Shown: positions 3,566-63,258 of the stretch, piece after piece
Position numbering within the stretch: position 1 is the first letter of the stretch
Layout of the letters: every line of letters begins with the position of its first letter
Origin: a virus
Virus record (IMG/VR): IMGVR_UViG_3300033064_000964
Span: 62,001-126,000 of that record
DNA: 64,000 nucleotides
Reading direction: 5' to 3' (one strand)
Notes under the pieces: generated by a model
Databases searched by the model: none
Told to the model about the DNA's origin: nothing
Seen by the model: the letters and a program-made list of their open reading frames with translations, nothing else
Translations under genes and position numbers: made by a program

Positions 3566-6500
3566 TGGGAATCGAGTTCACAGGTCACGTCCTGCGGGCT
3601 CCCCGGGTCGCCCCGGGGAACTCGACGACATCGAGCCCTCCGGCGAACGGGGTGGTTCGAGACGTTCGGGTGCCCCCGGCTCGGACAACCACGGCTCCTC
3701 TCATCGTGGACTTCGCGGGTGACCAGTATCGGGCCGCTGTGCTCGAAGGCCCCGGCACCTCCCCGCATGAGTATCTGGTCTGGACCGCCGTGTCCTCGCA
3801 GCTCGCCCTGGTCGATGACGCGAGCTGGTGGATGGCGGATGGCACCGGCAGCATCCCAGCCGGAGTGACCTTCAAGGTCATCGTCACGGACGACGGTGGG
3901 CGAGCCATCGGTCGGGTGACCCACCTGGTCATCTCCCGTGGTGACGTGGCCCACGTCGATGAGGGCTGGGTGGACGTGAACAACCCGGCGGCAGGCCGAC
4001 TGGGCTCGCTGCCCTACTACGTCGTCGTCCCTGCGGTCGTGGACCAGAACCCGGTGTCCGGGGTGGTCACCCTGACCGACGACAACGTGTTCACGGCCAC
4101 GGGAGCAGCCCTGGTCCCCAGCACCCTCGCGGCCTTGTTCGGGGGTGGCCTGTCCATCGAGCGCGGCGATGTCGTACAGGGTGTGCGCTACACCTTGTCG
4201 GCAGCCCGCTTCTGGTGGACTCGCAACGACCGCTACGAGACCCGCTTCGGCTGGAACGGTCGCCTTCAGCGGTGGATGCCCTACAAGGGATCGGCCCCGG
4301 TCAACCTCGGCCGACTCCTGTTCGATGAGTCGTACCGGATCTCGCCTCCCCTCAGCAACCTCCCTGTGGGCTCTGTGCTGCCGGGGAATGCCCTGGTGGG
4401 CGACCAGTACGCCATGCTCCGGCTGGGCTCGTCAGCAGGGGCTCTGAGCCTCCCAGTGGGTGTCTCCGACCCCGATGGGTTCGAGGGTGTGCAGGTCGTC
4501 GCGGATGCCGACGTGGCGACTGACTACGACTTCTCCGGGTCCGCTCGGGCAGCGGTCGTGGGTCAGACGACGGGCATCCTCCAGTTCAACCCGCTGTTCA
4601 TCGAGGAGCACGCGGGCAAGGTCATTTGGTACGTCTACCGGAGCTTCGCGGCGGCCTCGACCGGCATCGTCGGCACCCTCATCGCCCCCGATGACCTGTT
4701 TCTTGCCCCGGTGCCTGGTCCGACCGACTATCCCTTCATCCGCATCAACAACCGGACGCCCCTGACCGTGACGCTGGCTGTCGATGAGGCAGCTCTGGCC
4801 GCTTTGACGTTCGGCGAGGGTTCGTGCGGTGTGGCCCTGACGACGGGACGGCTGAAGCTCTCTCAGACAGACATCGACAAGGCAGACCCAGAGAAGCTGG
4901 CGACCTTCGACAAGCACTTTCTCGGGGCGAGCATCGTCTACGACGGGGTGGCCCTCAACGCGACTCCGCAGCCGACGAAGGGGCCTCGACCTCTGGTGCA
5001 GCTCGACGGGGTGACGACGACGGTGCATCCGGTCGAGCCGATGTACCTGCCCGCTGCCCTCCCCTGGCCGGAAGACGCAGCAGGAGGGCTGTACGCAGGG
5101 CTCGGCCTCTCCGGTGTCATGCACATGCCGGACAAGACCGGAGCGGTCCCCGACCCGGAGGGGGTGAACCCCGCCATCGTGGTAGTCCCGGTACGACCGG
5201 GTGGTGATGCCTTGCCCCCGCCTGGTGGTGGGGTGCCTCCGCAGACCATCGGGCTGATCCGCCAGATCGAAGACGGGGTGGGTGACACCATCCTGTTCTC
5301 GAAGGCCGGGGCCATCGAAGAGCTGATCGTGGTGGACCGCAACAGCGAGCTGCCGAACTTCCCGTTCGATGTCCCCGGCGGGGTGGCCTACATCGCCCGT
5401 GAGGCAACGACGGTGGCAGGGGCTCCGCACTCAGCGGTGCAGCTCGGGTCGGAGACACGGACAGCGTTCGCTGGTCAGGATGTCTACTTCCTCCAGGCGT
5501 CGTTGAACCCCTCGACGTACACGGAGACGGCCGCCCTCTACTCCAAGAGCCGCATCGTCTTCCGGTTCGACGGCACCGAAGTCCTGTACTTCGCCAGCGA
5601 CGGCACCGGCCACGACTGGCACGCCAGCTCCTTGCCCGCGCAGGACTTCTACACAGCAGGCGAGGTGGCTGCCTCCATCCAGGCCCGCATCACCGCACAG
5701 GCAGGCACAGCGGTCTGTCGAGCTGCTGGTGACCGGGTGGTGCTTGAAGCGGCTGACCCGGACGTGGGCTGGATCGAGATCGGCTGGGGCTTCCCGAAGG
5801 ACTTGAGCGGGGCGGCGGCCCTCGGATTCTTGCCGGGCTGGCGAGCCCTGGGTGGCCAGCCGAACTGGCTGACCGATGCGGGCGTCTCGATGGGCTTGTC
5901 CCGGAGCTTGCTCAACCTGGACCGCAGCAAGCCAGACGCGGACTACCTCGCGCAGTACCGGCTGTCCGATGTGGTGGTCGCCTCGTCCGTGCAGGGGTCG
6001 CCCTTCGTGTTCTTCGACTTTCCGCCCGTCGAGGACGTGGCGGGCTTCGATGAGGGGGTGTTCTTCAACCTCCAGACGATGGCACTCAACGGCGACGACA
6101 TCCGCATCGTGGACAAGCGGCTGGGCCACTACGCTGAGATCGAGCATCGCTTCGCAGAGGGCAAGTTCTCCTGGCTGGACAGTGCCACCTCATCGAACCC
6201 GGTCATCCAGCGCACCTCATCCGTCAACCTGGGGCACTCGGCGGTCGTTCCAGAGACGCTGCTGGGCGCTCCGGGCATCGGCGGGGGCTTCATGGCTGCC
6301 GAGGATGCCGGTCAGTACGTCGTCCAGCGTCAGGGCGTGGACTACCTGATCACCGACGACGGCCTCTCCGGCACCACCCAGCTCATCACCCGCTACGGAG
6401 CACGGGTGGACTTCGGAGCCCGTGGCACCTACGCCCTCGGTGGCACCACCTTCGAGGACCCAGACGCGAACTTCTTGGCGGCGATGCAGCCTGGTACACG

Positions 6501-28178: not shown

Positions 28179-31100
28179 ATGGCTTTCACGCCGCCAACGA
28201 ACCCCGAGGACAGCTACGAACTGAGCCCCTTCGGGTTCGGCCCGTTCCCGCTCCCTGGTGAGTCGGTTGACGTAGCTCCCCCGCACCCGGTCGGCGGTGG
28301 CTACGGCGGTGTCGGTTTCTTGTCGGCTGGTGACCTCCCGGACAACGGCAGCCCCTACGGCCTGGGCTCCTACGGCTCCCGGTGGTTCAGCCGCCCCAAG
28401 GTCAACATCAGCGGCGGCTACGGTGGTGACCCCTACGGCCTGGGTGGCTACGGCAGCACCGAAGTCACGCCTCCCTACGTCTCATCGGCCATTTCGCTCG
28501 ACGGCTTCACCATCGAGGTGTTCTTCAGCGAAGAGGTGGACACCACCAACCCCGCGTTGACCGACCCGACGAGCTACACGCTGGAGCCCATCACCGGGGC
28601 AGCTCCCGCGACGGTGCTCTCGGTTCACATCGAGAAGCTGGGGTCGGTCAACCTGGCTGCTGGCGACACCATCGCCGGGGCCATCTCGGTCGTCATCACC
28701 CACACAGGGACGACGCAGGGCGGGATGTACAAGGTCCACGCCACGGGTCTGACCGACATCGCGGGCAACCCGATCATCGACGCTGACGCTCCGTTCCTGG
28801 CCAAGGGTGAGCCGCCGACCTTCGCGGTCAGCCTTCCGGCCCCGGACGCAGGGAACGAGCTGCTGGTCACGTTCAGCCACCCGATGTTGCAGAACGCGGG
28901 TGGCTTCCCGGACCTGGCGAGCTACGACTTCGCGGTAGCCACGAGCAACCCCTACCCCATCGATCTTGTGCCGACGAGCATCGTCGTGGTGGACGACAAG
29001 CAGGTGCGGCTCGGGGTCAAGGGCATGACCTCGTTGAACTACGACCTGACGGTCAGCGAGGCGTTCGCGTTCGCCTTCGACACGACGCTGGGGCTCCGCA
29101 ACTGCACCGCTCTCACGCTGGGGGTGGGGACGGTCACGGAGTCTCCGGGCTACCTCGTGTTTTCGAGGCCGAACACCTCTGCGGGCTTCGCTCGGGAGTG
29201 GGACGACACGAGTGGCACCATCACCCCGCTGACCTCGACGCTGCGGTCGGACTGCACCTTCGACTTCAGCAACGCGGCCTTCGAGCCTGCGATCTCCCTG
29301 TTCCCGGTCCCGGAGGTCGGGGAGATCCTCTTCCAGGATGGCGTGCCCGGCAACGGCCTGTTCATCAAGGTCATGCTCCAGATGAGCATCACCGGGGTCG
29401 AGCAGGTGCGCTTGCGGTCGGGCACCTTCGACATGACGGTGGACGCCACCTGGTCGGATGCGGTCCACACGATCTCCTTCGTGCGGAACATGCAGGCGGG
29501 CATCGTCACCTTCCTGCTCGATGAGCAGCCGCTCACGTCCACCGCGATTGCGAACGTGGACGCCCCGGCAGAGACACAGGCGTCAGTGCGCTTCGGCCTC
29601 TACCCCGGCGGGTGGAACATCAGCGGTGTCCGGCTGGTGAGCCTCATCACCACCAGCTCCACGACGGTCTTCTCGTCTGCCTGGAACTTCCTGCACGGCC
29701 AGATCGGGCAGTTCCTCGGCTCCGATCTGCTGACCCGTGACCGACTGCTGACGCAGCGAGGCCCGCTGGTCAAGGGCTGGGGTGACGCGACCCCAGCGAC
29801 CGAAGCTGATGTGGCTGTCATCATCAATGGCACGGCGGTATCCATCGCCGAGGTGAACCCCTACATCGGCGGCATCGTCCTGACGGTGCCTGTACCCCTC
29901 CTCCCGCTCGGTGACCCACAGGCCAGCGTGGCGGTGGACTACAAGTGGTTCAAGAGTCCCGTCATGGAGCTGGCCGGGTTGAACACCCTCGGCCTGGTGC
30001 TCAACAAGTTCGACTGCGCCCGCAGAGGCCACCACGACCCGGCGGCCCACGGCGATCAGGTCCAGGTTCTTCCGGGGCAGCCGGACTTCATGGCGAACCC
30101 CGGACACCCCAAGGGGGCCGTGGACATCCACCGCTTCCCGATGAGCGTGGTCCTCGGGCCGATGAGCCGGAGCGAACCGCTCTACATCGGTCACCGCTAC
30201 ATGGGGTTCGAGCGGGCGTACTCAGCTCTGACCAACAGCCCGACCACCCTGCGGCTCAACCAGGCCCCAGGGCGTGTATCCGTGCCCGGCTTCGAGCGGG
30301 AGGTAGCTGGGGTCAGTGTGGCCTACGAAGGGCTCGTGAAGCCCGTAGACGCCGCCCCTGCGTGGGCTCTGGACGGTGCTGACTTCGGTGCCGTGGATCA
30401 CGACGCTGATGCAGGGATCGACCTCGGGACGTACACGATCATCGACCCCATCGTGGGGGACGCTGGGCCGACTGAGACGGCGACGGTCTACCACCGTGGG
30501 CTGGACCTCACCTATCCGTCGAGCGTTAACCTGGTGGCCCGCTTCCAGACGGCAGCCACGGCCTTGTTCGATACGGACCACGTGGCTCCTTCCCCGGCTC
30601 CGACCGGGCTGGTGGCGGTCCCCACGGCTGATGGTGTGTTCACGGGTGTCGGGTTCGGCATCCACGACAACAGGCACCTGTACTTCTGCGGGGTGCTCCT
30701 GATCAACGGGGTCGAGCACGTCGGCCTGCTGCTCAACCCGAAGCGCATCCACGAGTGGGAGTCCTGGGCCATCGGGCCGAAGTCCATCCTGACGGCCTCC
30801 TCGCAGAGTCGAGGGGCCTTCCCGTCCTCGCAGGTGTCCACGGGGTTCACAGTCGGGTCGAAGTTCCAGCGACTCACGGGCACGCAGGTCGGGGTCTACA
30901 CGGCGACGAGCGTGGTGGCTCAGAGCGACGGCACGACGACGGTGGACTTCACGCCGGTCCTTCCCTCGCCGTGGGACATCTACGGCAACAAGTTCGTCGA
31001 GGTGGTCTTCGAGACGCGAGCGAGCATCAAGCCGTTCACATACCGGCTCGACCTCGACACGGACCAGCAGGTTGCAGAGCTGCGGATCTCCGGGGAGACG

Positions 31101-34100
31101 CGGGGGGTGGTCACCCGCATCGACGGCAACGTGCCTCCGGTCCCCGTGGCAGCTCAGACATCGCTCCTGCTCCCGGAGGAGATCGTCGGGCAGGTCTTCT
31201 GGGGCAGCTTGAGCAGGCAGGCGGCGAGCCGGGCAACGTGGTCCTTCATGCGTTACGGCCTGGTGCCCGACCAGGTGTTCATCCAGGGCCACGCGGTCGT
31301 CAACAACACGGAGATGAGCGACCTCCCCGAGGACAACCCGGCGGCCGGTGGCGGCCAGTGGTGGCCGGTGCAGACCTTCGGGACGGCAGAGATCCTGCCG
31401 AACGTGGACACCTTGCTCTTGAAGGCCACTTCGGCGAGCAGTGTCTACGATCTGAGCTACGGCTACGCCCGAGTGGAGCCATTCTTCACCCCGGACGCCA
31501 TCTTCGACTACCGGGCAGGCATCCAGCTCGACTCGACCACCATCGGGGCAGGTGGAGCTGAGCTGCTGCTGGACGACACGCAGCGACAGACCGTCGTGCG
31601 CAGCCTCATGGTGCTGGAGAACCTGTCGGCTGACCCCACGGCCTACCGGGGCCTGGTGTCGCTGCCGCAGGTGAGCCACACCGGCCTCTTCCCGACCTCC
31701 GAGATGGGCTGGGCGGTCGAGGCAGGTGCGACCGTGGTGGGGACGCATGAAGGCGCTCAGATGGTGGTGGTGCAGAACGCCACCCAGCGGGGCAAGTGGC
31801 TCAACAACCTGGTGTTCGACGCGACTGACCCCGGCATCGTCGATGCGGACGAGGGGCGGGTCTTCGAGGCACGGCTGGAGGTCAAGGCCCGGACGACCAA
31901 CGCCAACGGCGACTCCGGCATCATCTTCGGTGGCCAGGTCGCGGCTGCGGGGGCCGGGTTCGCGTACTTCCAGATCGAGCTGGCCGGAGCCATCGGCAGC
32001 GAGGTGGTTCGGCTTCGGACTGCTGCCGGTGCCCCCATCGGCGAGTACACCTTCGACTGGACGGGGGAGGCCCACACGTTCCGGCTCCTCGCCAACCGGG
32101 TAGCGGATACGGTCACCCTGGTCATCGACGACATCGTGCAGACGCCCAGCGTCGCGTTCACGGCCTTCACCGGGGGCACGAACAACACGCAGGCATTCTT
32201 CGGCTGCACGGGTCGGGACGCTGCTGATGCCTTCGACACAGCCTTGACGGCCACGGTCGAGTGGCAGCACTTCCACGCCCACGTCCAGGCTCCGGCGGGT
32301 GTCGTGCGAACCATCGGTGTGCTGCGGGGGGTGACGGCCAACGCCTTCTCGCAGGACATCAACGACTACGAGCTGCCTCGAACGGACGCCTCAACGGCTC
32401 CGAACTCGTGGGCGACCGGGCCGGTCATCGAGTGGTGGGACTGGCGGCAGCCCATCGACCTGCGGGTCTACCGCGATCCAGGCTGGGGCGTCACGGTCTT
32501 CCGGCCCGACCTGCCCTTGCCGCCCTACTACGTGCCCGAGGACGGCACGGCAGGGGTGGGCTTCATCACGGAGTCCAACGAGCCTTCGGCGGGCTGGATC
32601 AACGTCGAGTACAAGAACCTGCCTCCGACGCGGGGTGAGCAGCTCGGGTTCGTGGGCTTCGGCAGCCTGATCCCCGAGGACATCAGCCAGGCCCGGTGGG
32701 ACTGGGTCCGCTACCGGATGTTCAAGCACCCGACCGAGGACCGCATCGCTCCTGAGCACATGCTCCTCAACCAGTTCAACGTCATCACGAGCGGGGAACG
32801 CACGCAGGACGTGACCCTGGAGACGGTCATCGTCCAGACGATGGACAAGACGCGGCTGTCCTTGCTGCCGACGCACCTGTACGCCGAGTCCATCTACAAG
32901 ATCATCGACGGGGCGACGATCTGGACGCGGGAGTTCTGGACCTTCGACCCGGCTTCGCAGCTCGTCACCCTCCAGCCCGACCCGCTGACGGGAGCCGCAC
33001 GGGAGTTCTCTGCCGAGCACGCCAACGTCACGGTGATGTTCACGCCGGGCTTGCCGGTCACGAACACGTACCTGGGGCTCCAGCCCCTCCTGGACGGGGT
33101 GACGCTGCTCAACGAGGGCACGCCTCCGATTCCGATGAGCCAGACGGCTGAGAGCCAGATCGAGACGGTGTATGGGTCGCACTTGAACGACCCGGAGGAC
33201 GTGCTCAACGACGACCCAGACTTCGTGCTCAACGACCCGCACAGAACGATCCGCCACAACGACGTGGAGGGCTCGCTCTACGAGTCGCTGGACTTCATCG
33301 AGGTGGACAACAGCGGCCAGACCGACCTCATCGCGGCCATCTGCGAGGGTGGTCCCGGCACAGGCTTCTCCGGGCACTCGCCCACCGAGGGGGAGGACAC
33401 CTACTCCAAGACCGGCGGCGGGGCAGCTCTCGGTGGCGTGGGTGGCGTGGCTGACCTGTTCGCCACGGGCACCAAGGTCGGCATGGCGGTCGGGGCCGAG
33501 GTCTTCGACTTCAGCGGGACGATGTTCTGGCACGACACGGACTTCCTGCCCCAGCCGGACTGGCAGCAGAAGGGCGGGATGCCCGGCGGCATCCTGTTCG
33601 CCTCTGGCGGCAACTTCGTCAACCCGGTGGTGGACGCCCTGGGCAACATCATCCCTGGAGCGGTCGTAGCGGGCGGTGGCAACCTCGGGCCGGGCACGGC
33701 AGTCCTGTTCCCCACCTTCCCGGCCAGAGGGCCTGTGGGTGGCGACCAGGGGCGCATCTACCAGCGCACGGACTGGTACCTGAGCCTCCGCTCTGTGCTG
33801 GCCACCGACCCCGGTGGTTCGGCAGGTTCGGCAGGTTCGGCAGGTTCGGCAGGTGGTGGTGCGGTCGAGACCCCGCTGGACGAGGACTGGACGGCATCCG
33901 GGTGGGACACGGATGCTCCGAGTGGCCCTGCGAGTCAGGTCGTCAACCCGACCGGGGTGACCAACCCTCTGGGTGCGGCCATCGGGTACATGCTGGGGGC
34001 AGGCGACTACTCCCGCTACGGCCCGTGGGGTGGCCTGGGTGCCTTGTCGGCTGCCCGGGACTCCGGGAGCTTCGTGTTCATGGTCACGCTGGAAGAGAAC

Positions 34101-47600: not shown

Positions 47601-50202
47601 CAAGCGGCTGGAAGTCACGGTCGGCAACCCTTCGGGGCATGGCCAGCCGGGAGACGCGCACTTCAACGAGCTGGCCGATGCCGTCGCGTTCGTGACGGAG
47701 ACCTACCGGGCCTTCCAGGTCTCGGGCGCACCGGGCGAAGAGGGTCGGGCTCGCCGCATCAAGGTCATCGGGCCGACGCGGGAGGACAACGCCAAGCTCC
47801 CCATCTCGCCAGCCGGTCTCAGTGGGGTCATCATCGAGGGTGCCGCCCGGACGCCGGACGACACCGCCGCGAACCCCCTGTCGATCACCTGGGAGGGGGC
47901 AGCGGCTCCCCCGCTGTTCGACCTCTCGGATGTATCTGGCTGGACGTTCCGGGATCTGGCCTTCCGCTTCGTGGACTCGGCGGCTTCGGCGGTGGTGCCG
48001 GAACGCTGCCTGTTCATCACGAGGGATGGCCCGACTCGGAACTGCATCTTCGAGAACATCTACCTTCTCGGGAAGGCCCACGGCTTCTACTACATCGACG
48101 ACACTGCCGTCCCTGGCAGTGCCGCCTACGACAACCTGCTGTTCCGCAACTGCGCTGCCACGGAGCTGACCGACTTCGCCATCCGGGTCGAGAACAACAT
48201 CGACGCGGCCAACGCCGACGTGATGAAGGTCGAGGGCTGCGACTTCACGGTGGCCAAGGGAGCTGGCCGCGAGCTGAACGGGACGATCACCGATGGTGGC
48301 ATCGTCCACGTCGGGACGACCAACGCCGAGCGGACCAGCATCCGGGACAGCAGGCTCATTGGCGGCAACGTCGGCATGTTCTCTGCTGGTGTCGGCAACG
48401 TCATCGACGGCTGCCTCATCCAGAACACCGACCTCCCGGCGATCTGGGCGAAGTCGGACTTCTGGGAGATCAACAACAACGACATCGTGGCCGCCCACAC
48501 CGTCAAGGGCACGTCCGGGCCGTTGAACCCCGCCAAGGTGGCCCTCTACATCGACGCGGGTGGTGCTGGACAGAACGAAGTCCACGTCATCAACAACCGG
48601 GTCGATGTCAGCGGTGGTGCAGCGGGCGACCGGGCCATCTTCAGCGACGGCAACACCTTCAACTGCATCTTCTCCGGCAACAGCGTCGATTTCGACATCA
48701 TGGCTGCGACGGCAGTTCACATCCTCGACAACGACATCGCGGTAGGCGATCTGTCGTTCGATGCCAGTTGCACCGTCCGGGGCAACGCCGTGGTCGGAGA
48801 CATGATCCCCCTGGGGACCCTGGCCAACATCTCCAACAACAACGTGGCCGGTCTGCTGCTGGGCATCCTTGGGACGAACTGCCGCTACAGCAACAACAAC
48901 TTCCTGAGCAGCACCGCCACCGACCATGTGGTCGCCAACGGGAGCAGCTTCAACGGCGACTGGTTCGGGGACCAGGCATCGGCTGGTGGTCGGGTCGAGC
49001 TGGCGAACGACTGCACCTTCATCGGGTGCCGCTTCTCTGATGCCGTGGATGGTGTGACGAAGTTGCCTTCCCGGAACCGTTTCGAGGCGTGCGTGTTCGA
49101 TATGTACGCCACCGGCTTCCAGGTAAGGGGTGGCTCAAACTCCTTCCTTGGCAACGCCTTCAACGACCGGACGGCGGGTCCAGTCCTCAATCTTGAGATC
49201 AACATCAAGGGTGAGGGGACGGTCTTCTCGGACAACAAGTGCTCCATCGGCACCTTGTCGCTGGAGCCCGAAGCGGGTGAGAACCAGCGGTTCGTGGTGA
49301 CCGGCAACCAGTTCTTCGTCCCTGACATCAACGTGGGCGGCATGTGGATTCAGGGCGGCTACAGCGTGGTCAGCGACAACGTGGTGGTCGGCTGGGAGAG
49401 CGAGAGCGCCGACCCCGACAAGTTCTCCATCTTTGTCGAGGGGAACCAGAACGTCGTCAACGGCAATCTCTGTACCAAGAGCCTTCAGGTGAAGGGTGCC
49501 CAGTGTACGGCGGTGGGGAACCGGGTCTTGATCAACGCCGTCGTCGCGTTGACCGATGGCAAGTTCGACTCGAACCACGTCCAGGGCGATGTGCTCATCG
49601 GTGGTGGGGCAGCGGCCAGCATCCAGTTCAACAGCAACCGGATCGCGGGCGACGTGGACTACCTGACGCCCGCGACCGACTCCCTGATCTCCAGTTCGTT
49701 CAACGACAACCGCATCGTCGGTACGACCACCCTGGCCGTAGCGGCTGGTGTGTCCATCGTGGACAGCACGATCTCGGGCAACAGGTTCGGCAACGACTTC
49801 GCGGCCACCCAGAGCGACGACTGCACCTTCGTAGGGAACCGCTGCACCGGCAGCGTGAATCTCACCAACTCGGTGGGGCTGGTCTGCAACAACAACCGCA
49901 TCGGCAAGGGTGGGGCGACGAAGAACCTCATCCTCACCACCTGTGCCGACTACATCTGCAACGGCAACTACGTCGAGGGCAGCATCCTGGTGGACGCCAA
50001 CACTAGCGGGACAGGCGTGGGCATCCTGGTCGGCAACCGAGCGGCGGTCATCTCGTCGGACAACGCTCCGCTCGCAGGTCAGGTTGCTGTCGGCAACCGG
50101 ACGACCGTCAACGGGGTCACCCCGTCGCTCTTCAACACGAACACGGGCGTCGTCGCCGACATCGGCGTTACCGTGCCCTCGAACTTGAACACCGAGGTCT
50201 AG
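44602..50202 (+). CDS. Tail spike with C-terminal right-handed beta-helix
   Basis: A 1866-residue protein. The N-terminal 1050 residues are mixed beta domains that presumably attach to the virion. From about residue 1090 the sequence becomes a long series of 20-25-residue coils rich in Asn, Gly, Cys and Ile. Examples are NCIFENIYLLGKAHGFYYI, NVIDGCLIQNTDLPAIWAKS, WEINNNDIVAAHTVKG and CTFVGNRCTGSVNLTNSVGL. This is typical of parallel beta-helix spikes that bind or cut capsular or lipopolysaccharide. Asn stacks (NNND, SNNNV, CNNNR) fit the internal ladders of such helices. The run continues nearly to the C-terminus (about 750 residues). Catalytic acids cannot be assigned by eye, so enzymatic activity is only possible. 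It ends 4 bases before the next start. Confidence 0.75.
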   Translation: MADYPLTKLEKALARRASSSASKPAWQELMERYDTVPSSKSVQAPDAITGFSGSWAASYDLGGSLRDMTVGESPAQIQRRTNLLGQPGMGEINFRPYDHGTNRHGKYGPSLLGHPISFQVVGPTAKTRGLVHQWFITEAGNVDTLNLDVGADINSKSITPSPLPAGADTIGEIYGFTAIPEGGLYIVVTMTGSEGVVTDNGAFAPGTDGGLGDGFIGEDDGGAPIGAGARLAVIPRTESVKYEIFRVTAMTPTTLVLDNAKRLSTYFDYNIGANAPVIRAITIIRPAATRLVAVPGSGSVQGGEQTFAFVPPVTALNADWQPVYASATGTGLFDPWTSAKNLDTNPAWGFAADAKDYGQAVVLPIPAPVNRGQGRLQGINGEAPQQLPLGRFRLILDAASYFGSTLDIGKIIRIYDIRRVLDGDWETIASAPATHRGRPLLDRMLGYFEIFNTGNADQGVGANNFYDLKFVSQVDPDTGVPFFGAGTNFVMATGSGAGQEVRFQWTVHEPISTLWTDRYLHPTRLDSARLKNLIDPRWVKPTLKGRELTDMAGHQAMPDRAIFDTSSSSAGVAGGNANPGNLLDLGFRVVLFPAKVIGAPTTSLVPDFDNPIDANEVVLDPTKLDENQFIEVDYSAGLVHLSHPPVVGSQLVPLAGILTADDNPRGEAVFFAACVPFSREPGQMGVNPRLTAGRSLDRAGSFCGLDSPEPVDVYGGRIFWPGDNQTINSGPQRTIQLNVELGPIDLPLTGFVDVLIGDHNPAGDPLFSNSDEERLCTFGYSTVNYNDVGHGGRTTLEGTFGGGDQTGPASYVVVPATTPVTVVLRKNIVLPNTLDGRTGTDYQFDTTYGYAKRPATLRFTHGDLTPEHDGSVSISTKDPRTDAHEALFSELFSSWCISGGINSTVLPSVGATLHFSEAVVLIQGIRTVMPEQDLVLGVVAGPPASRYVYIDGSTPACPVWASTTVLPLPTDNDVLMASYTHAGGNIQTLIDLRDPLVDIDKRLEVTVGNPSGHGQPGDAHFNELADAVAFVTETYRAFQVSGAPGEEGRARRIKVIGPTREDNAKLPISPAGLSGVIIEGAARTPDDTAANPLSITWEGAAAPPLFDLSDVSGWTFRDLAFRFVDSAASAVVPERCLFITRDGPTRNCIFENIYLLGKAHGFYYIDDTAVPGSAAYDNLLFRNCAATELTDFAIRVENNIDAANADVMKVEGCDFTVAKGAGRELNGTITDGGIVHVGTTNAERTSIRDSRLIGGNVGMFSAGVGNVIDGCLIQNTDLPAIWAKSDFWEINNNDIVAAHTVKGTSGPLNPAKVALYIDAGGAGQNEVHVINNRVDVSGGAAGDRAIFSDGNTFNCIFSGNSVDFDIMAATAVHILDNDIAVGDLSFDASCTVRGNAVVGDMIPLGTLANISNNNVAGLLLGILGTNCRYSNNNFLSSTATDHVVANGSSFNGDWFGDQASAGGRVELANDCTFIGCRFSDAVDGVTKLPSRNRFEACVFDMYATGFQVRGGSNSFLGNAFNDRTAGPVLNLEINIKGEGTVFSDNKCSIGTLSLEPEAGENQRFVVTGNQFFVPDINVGGMWIQGGYSVVSDNVVVGWESESADPDKFSIFVEGNQNVVNGNLCTKSLQVKGAQCTAVGNRVLINAVVALTDGKFDSNHVQGDVLIGGGAAASIQFNSNRIAGDVDYLTPATDSLISSSFNDNRIVGTTTLAVAAGVSIVDSTISGNRFGNDFAATQSDDCTFVGNRCTGSVNLTNSVGLVCNNNRIGKGGATKNLILTTCADYICNGNYVEGSILVDANTSGTGVGILVGNRAAVISSDNAPLAGQVAVGNRTTVNGVTPSLFNTNTGVVADIGVTVPSNLNTEV

Positions 50203-60068: not shown

Positions 60069-60271
60069 GGAGTGCTCCTGGTGGGGATGAGATCCCCGTT
60101 CTCGTCGTGGGTCGCCTTGTAGGCGACCTCGGCCCTGCGTCGGGCCTCTTCGGGTTCGATGTCAAAGTCATCGCCCACGGCGATGAGGAACGCGGTGGAC
60201 CGAAGGTGAAGCTCCTTGCGCTGCACCGGGTCGGCGAGGATGGCCTTGATGTCCACGCGGCGACTGCTCAC
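60065..60271 (-). CDS. Small acidic helical protein
   Basis: A 68-residue protein starting with GTG at 60271, overlapping the upstream gene's stop (GTGA), and ending in an ATGA overlap. It is mostly helical (VDIKAILADPVQRKELHLRS; EPEEARRRAEVAYKATHDEN). Such small proteins in early regions are often host-takeover factors, but nothing specific can be seen. Confidence 0.6.
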   Translation of the reverse strand: MSSRRVDIKAILADPVQRKELHLRSTAFLIAVGDDFDIEPEEARRRAEVAYKATHDENGDLIPTRSTP

Positions 60272-61128
60272 AGCCCGGCCACCTTGATGTTCGGGTAGTC
60301 GGCCACGAGGTCACGGGCACCCTTGGCCGTCAGGTCCAGCACCTTGTTGCCCAGTCCGTTGAGGGCAGCCCACACGCCCTTGCCCATCGGCTTGACGATG
60401 ACGATGGAACCGTAAGGGCCGGTCAGCCTCGCGGCGGGCACCAGCGGCGTCGCAGCGGCTCCGATCTGGCTCTGGAGCCACTTCACGAGGGCCTGGAACA
60501 AGCCGATGTCAGTGCAGGTCTGGACGGCGAAGTGCTCGCTGTTGCTGCCGCCCCAGAAGATGGAGATCGCCCGGCCCATGTGCTTCGTGCAGAAGGTGGC
60601 GAGGTCGCCCTTGAAAGTGCCGTAGACGGCCCCCTGCCAGTCGGCGGGGAACTTGTCGAACTCGATCTCGATGTTCGAGCCCCTGATCCGCATCGACACC
60701 CCACCCGTGTTGCACCGCCACGATGTCGGGCTGGGTGCGGCAGGCTTCGCGGGGGCCACCGGGGCGTGCGTCCGGGGCGTGTTCTGAACGGTGTGCCGGG
60801 GCTTGGTGGGCGTGGCCTGCGGGGTCGTCCCCTTGATGGTGGACTGCTGCACCCGCACGAACGGGGTGTCGGCGTAGTCGTAGCCCTTGGCGATCTTCTC
60901 GGGAGCCGCCTTCTCGACGTAGTCCCAGTCCTTCACGATGATCTGCGCCTTGGCACCGATGCTGCCCCAGTGGATCTCGACTGGCTCGTTGCGGGCTCGA
61001 CCCGTGCAGAGCCAGAACTTCTGACTCGGGTTGCCGTTGGCGGTCGTCCCGTAGAACTCCAGTCGGAAGGTCCAGGGTCGTCCCCTCCCCATCGTCCTGC
61101 GGGCATCAGCCAGTGTGAGTGTCGCCAT
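60268..61128 (-). CDS. WGR domain protein
   Basis: A 286-residue protein. I chose ATG 61128 (MATLTLADARR) rather than the longer frame because it follows the promoter-like element at 61153-61181 with a suitable leader and GGAG site. Residues 18-92 fit a WGR domain: RPWTFRLEFYG, then KFWLCTGR, a strand ending in HWGSIGAKAQ (W54-G55), and a helix with KIAKGYDY, the usual order. WGR domains occur in PARP enzymes and in bacterial and phage proteins, commonly as nucleic acid or protein contacts. Residues 100-135 are a Pro/Thr/Ala linker. Residues 136-286 form a second domain with no identified family (MRIRGSNIEIEFDKFPADWQ). No ADP-ribosyltransferase part is visible. Confidence 0.68.
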   Translation of the reverse strand: MATLTLADARRTMGRGRPWTFRLEFYGTTANGNPSQKFWLCTGRARNEPVEIHWGSIGAKAQIIVKDWDYVEKAAPEKIAKGYDYADTPFVRVQQSTIKGTTPQATPTKPRHTVQNTPRTHAPVAPAKPAAPSPTSWRCNTGGVSMRIRGSNIEIEFDKFPADWQGAVYGTFKGDLATFCTKHMGRAISIFWGGSNSEHFAVQTCTDIGLFQALVKWLQSQIGAAATPLVPAARLTGPYGSIVIVKPMGKGVWAALNGLGNKVLDLTAKGARDLVADYPNIKVAGL

Positions 61129-61152
61129 GATCGTCTCCGTTCGTCCGTGTCT

Positions 61153-61181
61153 ACTACTGACCGGGCTCGTCGTCTGAGCCC
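61153..61181 (-). promoter_or_regulatory. Promoter-like element GGGCTCAGA-N15-GTAGT (copy C)
   Basis: On the minus strand, GGGCTCAGA is followed after exactly 15 bases by GTAGT. The second block ends 24 bases before ATG 61128 of the WGR gene. One of four copies with the same spacing. Confidence 0.6.
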
Positions 61182-61450
61182 TACTCGTGCCCGAGCGCAC
61201 AGGGGTCATCGAACGCAGCCATGTCCCGCAATTCCAGGGCCTCCCGGTCGCCCTTCTCCGCGATCTGCCTGGCCACGTCGAGGGCGTGCTGGGCACTCTC
61301 GACTGACGGCATGGCGGTGTCGTCCTCGCGGGACCAGGCCACCCCCTTGGCGACCTTCACCAGCATGGCGATGGCGTGGGCCTCTGTCCCGAACCAGGAC
61401 CCGTCCTGGTTCTCGCCCCGGAGGGCCGCTCGAATGGTGTCCTCGTTCAT
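61181..61450 (-). CDS. Small helical protein
   Basis: An 89-residue protein; start ATG 61450 lies 2 bases after the stop of the Cys-rich protein gene. The sequence is mainly helical (MNEDTIRAALRGENQDG; EAHAIAMLVKVAKGVAWSRE; AQHALDVARQIAEKGDREAL). The frame is open upstream of 61450, but that part overlaps the preceding gene. Short, with no family recognised; probably co-expressed with the Cys-rich protein from the element at 61762. Confidence 0.6.
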   Translation of the reverse strand: MNEDTIRAALRGENQDGSWFGTEAHAIAMLVKVAKGVAWSREDDTAMPSVESAQHALDVARQIAEKGDREALELRDMAAFDDPCALGHE

Positions 61451-61452
61451 GG

Positions 61453-61740
61453 CTACCAGCCTCCGTCGTAGCAGCCGTAGTCCTCGTCGGTGCCCCACCC
61501 GCAGGAGGCCAGAGCCGAACCCGCGTCACCGTCCATGTCGTCGTTGAAGTCGTCGGCGTAGTCGTCGCTGTCGTCGGCTACGGGCAGCGGGCGCTCGCAC
61601 AGCGGGCAGTAGTCCGGCACGTCGCTCTCGCGGATTCGGAGGTTGCCCCACCCGCAGCCGCAGAGCACCTGGACCCAGGGGTTGCAGTCCTCGCAGGCCT
61701 CGGGGTCGTCGCAGCCTTCGCACTCGTTGTCGTCGTTCAT
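61453..61740 (-). CDS. Cys-rich acidic protein
   Basis: A 95-residue protein starting ATG 61740 after GAGAACACG, the same leader sequence found before 62095. The frame is open 33 bases further upstream, but that would run into the conserved leader. Cysteines are clustered: CEGC and CEDC near residues 8-18, CGCG near 28-31 and CPLC near 46-49, a zinc-ribbon-like arrangement. The C-terminal half is very acidic (DDSDDYADDFNDDMDGD) with Gly and Trp (ASCGWGTDEDYGCYDGGW). A metal-binding regulator or DNA-mimic-like early protein is conceivable; nothing is proven. Confidence 0.6.
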   Translation of the reverse strand: MNDDNECEGCDDPEACEDCNPWVQVLCGCGWGNLRIRESDVPDYCPLCERPLPVADDSDDYADDFNDDMDGDAGSALASCGWGTDEDYGCYDGGW

Positions 61741-61761
61741 CGTGTTCTCGCCTTCACCCCT

Positions 61762-61790
61762 ACTACGGGCCACCCCACCGTTCTGAGCCC
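61762..61790 (-). promoter_or_regulatory. Promoter-like element GGGCTCAGA-N15-GTAGT (copy B)
   Basis: Minus-strand copy reading towards the Cys-rich gene. GTAGT ends 21 bases before ATG 61740. The 16 bases from GTAGT onwards (GTAGTAGGGGTGAAGG) are identical to copy A on the other strand. Confidence 0.65.
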
Positions 61791-61798
61791 CCTTTTCG

Positions 61799-61814
61799 AG
61801 GAATCCAGATTCTT
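61799..61814. promoter_or_regulatory. Imperfect palindrome, possible operator
   Basis: AGGAATC-CA-GATTCTT is symmetrical except for one base. It lies between the two divergent promoter-like elements, upstream of copy B. A regulator site is possible. Confidence 0.35.
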
Positions 61815-61831
61815 GCCCAGGTGGGCGAAAA

Positions 61832-61854
61832 CGCAGGCATTTTCGATTCCTGCG
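61832..61854. promoter_or_regulatory. Inverted repeat CGCAGG-N11-CCTGCG, possible operator
   Basis: Perfect 6-base arms separated by 11 bases, ending 5 bases before copy A. The stretch TCGATTCCT within it is complementary to the TCGAGGAATC beside copy B, so both sides of the divergent region share sequence beyond the promoter blocks. Confidence 0.35.
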
Positions 61855-61859
61855 ATTGG

Positions 61860-61888
61860 GGGCTCAGAACCGGGACGTGCTCCGTAGT
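61860..61888 (+). promoter_or_regulatory. Promoter-like element GGGCTCAGA-N15-GTAGT (copy A)
   Basis: Plus-strand copy reading towards the 44-residue peptide gene. GTAGT ends 23 bases before ATG 61912. Together with copy B it makes a back-to-back divergent control region. Confidence 0.65.
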
Positions 61889-61911
61889 AGGGGTGAAGGA
61901 TGGAGAGCACG

Positions 61912-62046
61912 ATGAAAGTCACGACCGCGCTGCGACGCCTGATTGTCCAGTCCAAGGCCTACGGCCATGCCACCAAGGGCAAGGGCAAGCGGGGCGCGAG
62001 CAAGGCCCGCCGTCAGGTCGGCAAGGCTCTCTGCCGGAACTTCTAG
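61912..62046 (+). CDS. 44-residue basic peptide
   Basis: ATG 61912 is preceded by GGAG at 6 bases and the GAGAGCACG leader shared with other genes here. The product starts MKVTTALRRLIVQSKAYG and continues with a Lys/Arg/Gly-rich part (KGKGKRGASKARRQVGKAL), with 13 Lys/Arg residues and no Asp or Glu. One Cys lies near the end. It could bind nucleic acid or an acidic host protein. The shared promoter element and leader argue that it is a real gene despite its size. The next promoter-like element overlaps its stop codon. Confidence 0.6.
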   Translation: MKVTTALRRLIVQSKAYGHATKGKGKRGASKARRQVGKALCRNF

Positions 62047-62074
62047 GGCTCAGAAACTCAGACTGGCGAGTAGT
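62046..62074 (+). promoter_or_regulatory. Promoter-like element GGGCTCAGA-N15-GTAGT (copy D)
   Basis: The first G is the last base of the peptide gene stop codon. GTAGT ends 20 bases before ATG 62095, and GGAGAACACG precedes the start. Confidence 0.6.
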
Positions 62075-62094
62075 CAGATCGACTGGAGAACACG

Positions 62095-63258
62095 ATGCGA
62101 ACCGACCCCGAAATCGAAGCTGCCTTTGCCGCCTTCGGCACCAGCAACCCCCCGGCAGGCACGAACCCCGCGTCGGGCCGACTGGTCGCCAACGTGGACG
62201 CCCTGCTGGACGCCCCCGACCTCGGCCCCAACCGCAGCCCCAAGGTGGTCATCCCCGCCGGGACGGGAACCTCGTCCAGCGCGGCCCACTCGGCTGCTGA
62301 TGCCCTCGGCATCATCCGCGAGTGGCAGAAGGTCTTCACGCTGACAGCGACCCGCTGTACCTGCTGCGGCACCGACCTGCGGGACGCCGTGAGCGTGTCC
62401 CGAGGCATCGGCCCGGACTGCTCCCGCCAGCACTACGAGATCGACTTCGACATCACCGACGCGATGTTCGAGGAGGCCCTCGGCCTGCTCCAGGCGAGCA
62501 AGCTCGACAAGCTGGTCAAGCTCGCCGCCAAGGGCCTCAAGTCGAAGCCCCGCGACCTCTGCAACATCCTGATCTGGTGGTCCTCGGCCCACCTCGACAA
62601 CACGCAGGTCGTCCTCGACTGCGCGAGCATCGTGACGGCCCTCGGCTTCGTCGGCCTCGGTGACCGGCTCCGCGAGCGCAACACCGATGTCATCATCAGC
62701 CGCGACCCCGCCGACGCGAACTTCTACGTCGTCCGCTGCCGCAGCAAGATGAACGTCCGCCGGAACATGCGGCAGGTCAAGGAGGCCACCTCGGTCCCCC
62801 GTGAAGGCCGCTTCACCTACGGCTGGCGCTTCCCGCTCATCCGCAAGTCCCTGGTCTGGACCATCCTCGGTGAGGACTTCGGCGGACAGTGGGTGACGGT
62901 CCCCGGCATGATCGCTGGCAACCCCAGCCGGGTCGTCCAGATGGACGCGGCCTCCTGGTACGACGTGCGCGAAGCCCTCCGGGCTGCCTACAACCCGAAG
63001 CCGGCCGTCACCAAGGCGGCCCCCGCCGCCCCGGTCGTCAAGCCCGCCATCCTCCGGGTGCGGAACAACGGGCAGATGGATGTGATTGACCTCTACACCC
63101 CGAGCCGCAACTTCGGCTTCGTGGCCGAACTGAAGGCCCTGGTCCCCAGCCGGAACCGCACCTGGAACCGCGACTCGGGGTGCTGGACGGTCTTCTCGAT
63201 GAGCCTCCAGCCCCGGCTGGTCGAACTGGTCGCCGCCCACTTCAACGGGGCGGTCTAG
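62095..63258 (+). CDS. DUF6011-like zinc motif protein with HARP-like C-terminus
   Basis: A 387-residue protein. Residues 88-109 (CTCCGTDLRDAVSVSRGIGP then DC) match the C-x-x-C-G-x-x-L-x-D-x-x-S-x-x-x-G-I-G-P-x-C pattern of DUF6011-type motifs found in phage and actinobacterial proteins, likely a small zinc site. The middle (residues about 115-300) is globular and not recognised. Residues about 315-385 (LRVRNNGQMDVIDLYTP; FVAELKALVPSRNRTWNRDS; CWTVFSMS) resemble the HARP-like repeat seen next to DNA-remodelling helicases, including the R-x-W-x-x-x-x-x-x-W spacing. No helicase or nuclease motif is present, so a DNA-binding or recognition role is a guess. It has its own promoter-like element. 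Confidence 0.62.
   Translation: MRTDPEIEAAFAAFGTSNPPAGTNPASGRLVANVDALLDAPDLGPNRSPKVVIPAGTGTSSSAAHSAADALGIIREWQKVFTLTATRCTCCGTDLRDAVSVSRGIGPDCSRQHYEIDFDITDAMFEEALGLLQASKLDKLVKLAAKGLKSKPRDLCNILIWWSSAHLDNTQVVLDCASIVTALGFVGLGDRLRERNTDVIISRDPADANFYVVRCRSKMNVRRNMRQVKEATSVPREGRFTYGWRFPLIRKSLVWTILGEDFGGQWVTVPGMIAGNPSRVVQMDAASWYDVREALRAAYNPKPAVTKAAPAAPVVKPAILRVRNNGQMDVIDLYTPSRNFGFVAELKALVPSRNRTWNRDSGCWTVFSMSLQPRLVELVAAHFNGAV

Follow-up and report, generated by a model that had tools for sequence, protein, structure and literature searches.

A two-block motif that probably switches on about a dozen non-structural genes in a bacterial virus that is uncultured and probably very large

What turns on the genes that lie behind four copies of one two-block motif in a viral genome, and which protein reads it? 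The window, that is, the whole stretch of 64,000 nucleotides analysed here, corresponds to positions 62001-126000 of a fuller record of 132,823 bp (G000). A sequence-only reading had singled out four sites in it as a promoter family of constant spacing, each ending 20-24 bases before a start codon. All four proved to be exact matches, the window contains no other match with fewer than three mismatches, and GTAGT is separated from the ATGs at 61128, 61740, 61912 and 62095 by 24, 21, 23 and 20 nt, respectively. It is probable that about a dozen non-structural genes of this virus are switched on from the one motif, and the most plausible reader, as argued below, is a sigma-like protein of the phage itself.

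Sites in the window and across the record

The putative promoter sites and the genes behind them are given below, with +1 positions inferred from the geometry discussed in the next section; G001, G003 and G005 are related IMG/VR contigs.

61153..61181, minus strand: promoter site 1; GGGCTCA 61181-61175, GTAGT 61157-61153; inferred +1 at about 61146
60268..61128, minus strand: gene behind site 1; 286 aa, without Pfam match; homologues in G001, G003 and G005
61762..61790, minus strand: promoter site 2; GGGCTCA 61790-61784, GTAGT 61766-61762; inferred +1 at about 61755
61453..61740, minus strand: first gene behind site 2; gene call of 95 aa
61181-61450, minus strand: second gene after site 2; 89 aa, directly following the 95-aa gene
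61860..61888, plus strand: promoter site 3; GGGCTCA 61860-61866, GTAGT 61884-61888; inferred +1 at about 61895
61912..62046, plus strand: small ORF behind site 3; gene call of 44 aa, 82% identity to the G001 copy
62046..62074, plus strand: promoter site 4; GGGCTCA 62046-62052, GTAGT 62070-62074; inferred +1 at about 62081
62095..63258, plus strand: gene behind site 4; 387 aa, DUF6011 match (Pfam 2.2e-08); homologues in G001, G003 and G005

Sites 2 and 3 form a divergent pair that is kept in G001 (101105-/101175+), where the 29-mer of site 4 also recurs, identical, at 100919-.

The scan of the complete genome that the sequence-only reading had proposed was run on the rest of the record, and it ties the sites strongly to gene starts. 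G000 holds nine exact and two one-mismatch matches to the motif, against none for a reversed-pattern control. GGCTCA-GTAGT pairs occur 11 times at a spacing of 17, once at 9, once at 16 and twice at 28, with 0.097 pairs expected by chance at any given spacing (log10 Poisson P of -18.8 for 11 at spacing 17). An SD-ATG ORF follows 10 of the 11 paired sites, compared with 20 of the 225 other GTAGT sites in the record (9%). All 11 pairs lie on the non-structural flanks and none within the structural block at 48.5-120 kb, so that the confinement to the non-structural part, claimed from the window, holds for the record.

The boundaries of the blocks had to be redrawn: the fixed spacing stood, and the constant core is GGCTCA-N17-GTAGT in place of the N15 spacer originally described. 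The base before GTAGT is usually A or C. After GGCTCA, G000 has G where some relatives have A, and in many cases the match continues to GTAGTAGGGG. A near-constant distance of 16-18 bp between two conserved blocks, filled by variable sequence, is the form of a bacterial sigma-type bipartite promoter. As had been noticed from the window, the blocks do not make a usual -35/-10 pair: the consensus GGGCTCA / [AC]GTAGT includes neither the TATAAT-like -10 nor the TTGACA-like -35 of housekeeping sigma-70 promoters, nor does it have the TATAAT-like -10 that accompanies an activator box replacing the -35 in promoters of the T4 MotA type.

Conservation and the inferred start site

An exact IMG/VR scan combined with whole-record scans recovered the same motif and spacing in at least eight related contigs (G001, of 141.7 kb, G005, of 169 kb, G002, G003, G004, G006, G012, G013 and others). 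Sites at the rigid spacing number 11 in G000, 20 in G001, 36 in G005 and 8 in G002, with almost none at other spacings. G005, G012 and G013 mostly carry GGGCTCAA where G000 has GGGCTCAG, and 36 G005 sites take the former shape. Most motif-bearing contigs have virion or replication genes in common with G000, while G002, G004 and G012 are tied to the group mainly through its other members. Across the clade the blocks and the spacing are kept, the filler is free and the sites precede gene starts, in agreement with the original view of a protein-bound promoter; that the sites are promoters is, in our estimate, very likely. Three strong sites in G005 (5349-, 33066- and 39701+) have no clear downstream ORF and might give rise to non-coding transcripts.

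The position of the first ORF-opening ATG offers a clue to the start of transcription. Among 96 distinct clade sites it falls exactly at +6 from GTAGT in 11, about a tenth, compared with 3, 1, 1 and 0 sites at +4, +5, +7 and +8, and most of the others lie at +9 to +45. This suggests that the genes with an ATG at +6 have leaderless starts; since such ATGs stand at a constant offset, the start site would lie just downstream of GTAGT, and +1 is placed 7 nt after it. GTAGT then occupies -11 to -7 and GGGCTCA -35 to -29, positions that suggest the geometry of a bacterial holoenzyme, so that both the start site and the holoenzyme-like complex are deduced from spacing. The motif could instead be a repeat, an origin-like element or a protein-binding element with no promoter function, and several sites do form divergent pairs with AT-rich centres; however, the sites point toward ATGs, the leaderless offset of +6 is constant and single sites are common, which leaves this reading a very small chance.

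Distant relatives, hosts and the candidate reader

A nucleotide search against known phages returned no match. By protein, the closest relative is a 485-kb metagenomic phage, LR745208.1 (W01), followed more remotely by Tunturi_5 and phage G, and whole-record scans of W01 and Tunturi_5 found the GGCTCA-type motif in neither. De novo counting of gapped pairs before ATGs, covering parts of these genomes only, brought out other motifs in four more distant huge phages: CTAAA-N16-CCGATA in W01 (46 of 50 pairs at the rigid spacing), CTTACT-N13-GCGTAG in the 536-kb G017 (27 of 27), GGTTAC-N15-TCCGT in G032 (15 of 15, with the ATG at +9 in 8 of the 15) and CTTA-N15-GAGTA in G019 (8 of 11, borderline against the shuffled control). 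Their cores can be set in register as CTCA-N16-CGTAGT for G000, CTTA-N16-CGTAGA for G017, CTTA-N16-AGTAGT for G019 and TAAA-N16-CCGATA for W01, with G032 offset by about 2 bp; the partial sequence of G018, G022, G033, G024, G025, G028 and G029 yielded no clear motif. Equivalent motifs with other letters and the same geometry suggest that these viruses bring their own promoter readers, which evolve together with the motifs.

The phages might instead exploit an alternative sigma factor of the host. The W01 motif, written as TAAA-N15-GCCGATA, resembles the bacterial sigma-28 consensus, and one bacterial contig does carry convincing sites. A scan of bacterial genomes, whose pattern included the AGG extension and would miss a host regulon lacking it, gave 68 matches, a number in the range that chance predicts (about 120 by an estimate from equal base frequencies), nearly all with no gene start behind them. 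The exception is contig L227 of a Deltaproteobacterium MAG (GC 72%), cellular in appearance, on which two good sites at 4894 and 10182 precede an AAA/MoxR/VWA-like gene cluster; no sigma gene (TIGR02937) and no similarity to phage proteins was found on it. The remainder of this MAG, however, is not enriched (62 near-matches vs 85 in controls), and the letters of the motif vary between related phages while its geometry stays constant. A host factor as the reader is accordingly rated unlikely, though it keeps some weight.

A reader encoded by the phage has to be sought beyond G000, since no region-2 or sigma gene was found within its 132.8 kb; a weak region-4 match at G000 48321-48431 belongs to a small HTH-repeat protein and was discarded as a sigma factor. 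Another contig, G004, shares with G000 a terminal overlap of exactly 137 identical bp, and the synteny of G006 with the two contigs runs through the overlap point. The two were joined by this overlap and synteny, not by reads, and on these grounds the two sigma-like proteins encoded in G004, B and D, are very probably products of the phage from which the window comes. Matches to TIGR02937 were grouped into families A (region-2-like), B (a region-2-like core with a C-terminal HTH) and C (canonical). Family A itself is represented by 61 IMG/VR loci in huge phages, one of them on a contig of more than 600 kb.

Protein D, of about 200 aa, has two Sigma70_r4 domains (60 bits) and no region 2; it is present in G004, G006 and G012 and at 39 IMG/VR loci on contigs of up to 536 kb. 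Its predicted model (mean pLDDT 80.6) matched solved sigma region-4 domains in Foldseek with high probability for the HTH parts, no E-value falling below 0.001. The first recognition helix is near-identical in seven phages that span five motif types, and recognition helices that are invariant where motifs differ weaken D as the protein that sets specificity; it may rather contact the polymerase or a feature common to all these promoters. The same observation bears on an arrangement in the T4 MotA style, in which an activator on GGGCTCA would recruit the host holoenzyme to GTAGTA as a poor -10. D, as a two-HTH protein without region 2, could be such a recruiter, and HTH proteins are encoded in G000, but the D helices do not change with the differing -35 blocks, a TATAAT-like -10 is lacking and GTAGT varies no more than the upstream block. 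An activator of this kind appears improbable.

B, encoded at G004 61486-63012 and also in G012, matches Pfam sigma domains weakly (best E 0.0013, region 2), its members having been detected via TIGR02937; its structure model (pLDDT 43) was too poor for use. For its C-terminal HTH, identity is 68% between the two GGCTCA phages, about 50% with G019 and 9-12% with W01 and G032, a covariation with the motif that spans five phages of common ancestry and that relatedness alone could produce. B is favoured as the specificity reader because its C-terminal HTH varies with the motif and the D helices do not. Autoregulation of B was considered and set aside, as a motif site lies just upstream of the B gene only in G032 (36345-) and none was found near it in G012, G004, W01 or G019. 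The C gene of G032 has four motif sites in its vicinity. Divergent from the B gene, G004 60269-61423 (L411 2270-3424, minus strand) encodes a protein in which a stretch resembling region 2 and an HTH at the C-terminus can be made out by eye; it is possibly a further sigma-like family.

Phage-encoded RNA polymerases are known from phiKZ-like and AR9-like jumbo phages (PMC7598289), and one of these could in principle recognise the sites. A regex search of the contigs examined, which cover the genome incompletely, found no beta-prime catalytic motif, which makes such an enzyme less likely; the large virion-region proteins, scanned as candidates, gave no match and no support, and the gapped 17-bp spacer is unlike the T7-type form. 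We regard a phage RNA polymerase as highly improbable here.

Among the readers originally offered, then, the sigma factor fits best, given the holoenzyme geometry, the similar register of the motifs in homologous phages and the sigma-like genes on the joining contig, while the phage RNA polymerase and the activator lose ground. In the mechanism we favour, GGGCTCA would act as a -35-like and [AC]GTAGT as a -10-like element for a bacterial-type host core RNA polymerase equipped with an initiation factor other than the housekeeping one. That factor would be a phage-encoded sigma-like protein, with B as the best candidate, and the genes under its control would be non-structural and probably of an early-middle class. 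We put the probability of this phage-specific regulon, with its phage-encoded reader, at about two in three. It is more tentatively hypothesized that divergent family B, possibly with D as part of a multi-part factor, co-evolves with its promoters, so that each phage lineage would have its own promoter alphabet within a single conserved geometry on the host core RNA polymerase.

Comparison with known systems and further observations

The phage SPO1 proteins gp28 and gp34 are phage-encoded sigma factors with regulons of their own. As in those regulons, bipartite phage promoters without TATAAT and with a spacer near 17 bp would serve one class of genes here; the letters differ, the candidate reader comes from sequence comparison, several sigma-like genes occur in one clade, and motif letters change between relatives. 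Two short blocks, rigid spacing and a CGT/CGA-type -10 also recall bacterial ECF and sigma-28 promoters, although the phage motif is not enriched in the single bacterial MAG counted genome-wide, and GGGCTCA/CGTAGT is not known to fit any consensus. In Bacillus subtilis, SigO-RsoA is a two-part sigma factor, and by analogy D together with B or A may divide region 2 and region 4 between proteins.

Sigma factors have been described in jumbo phages: the part of PMC7824862 considered here distinguishes minimal single-HTH and RpoD-like types in Group 2, and PMC7162821 describes a huge phage that encodes a sigma-70 itself. Like those Group 2 phages, the present virus would supply sigma parts while apparently having no RNA polymerase of its own; it differs from the types in that portion of PMC7824862 in the two region-4 domains of D, the divergent fusion in B and the identification of promoters, no such motif being reported there. 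A literature search found no description of a GGGCTCA/GTAGT promoter family. Gene control in huge phages with apparently no RNA polymerase of their own is a largely unknown field, in which a promoter regulon legible from sequence gives access to gene classes and start sites. Homologous motifs with other letters and similar geometry amount to a natural experiment in how sigma factors change their specificity, and offer orthogonal promoter-reader pairs open to in vitro tests.

Several minor observations concern the same contigs. Outside the window, G000 30741-31745 (L009:10741-11745) encodes a protein that matches Volactin, an archaeal actin family, over the full length (PF25216, 3.4e-69), and this gene is conserved in G001 and G006. 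In G005, ARAGORN predicts a tRNA with a CUA anticodon at L051 14461-14550, labelled tRNA-Pyl, which could be an amber suppressor. A second conserved pair, CCTAT-N12-GTAG, stands before genes at G000 8274+ and 32241+ and at several positions in G012, G006 and G004, with up to 7 sites per genome; it often reads GTAGA, is often preceded by GTTAGT or TGATT, and possibly represents a second promoter class.
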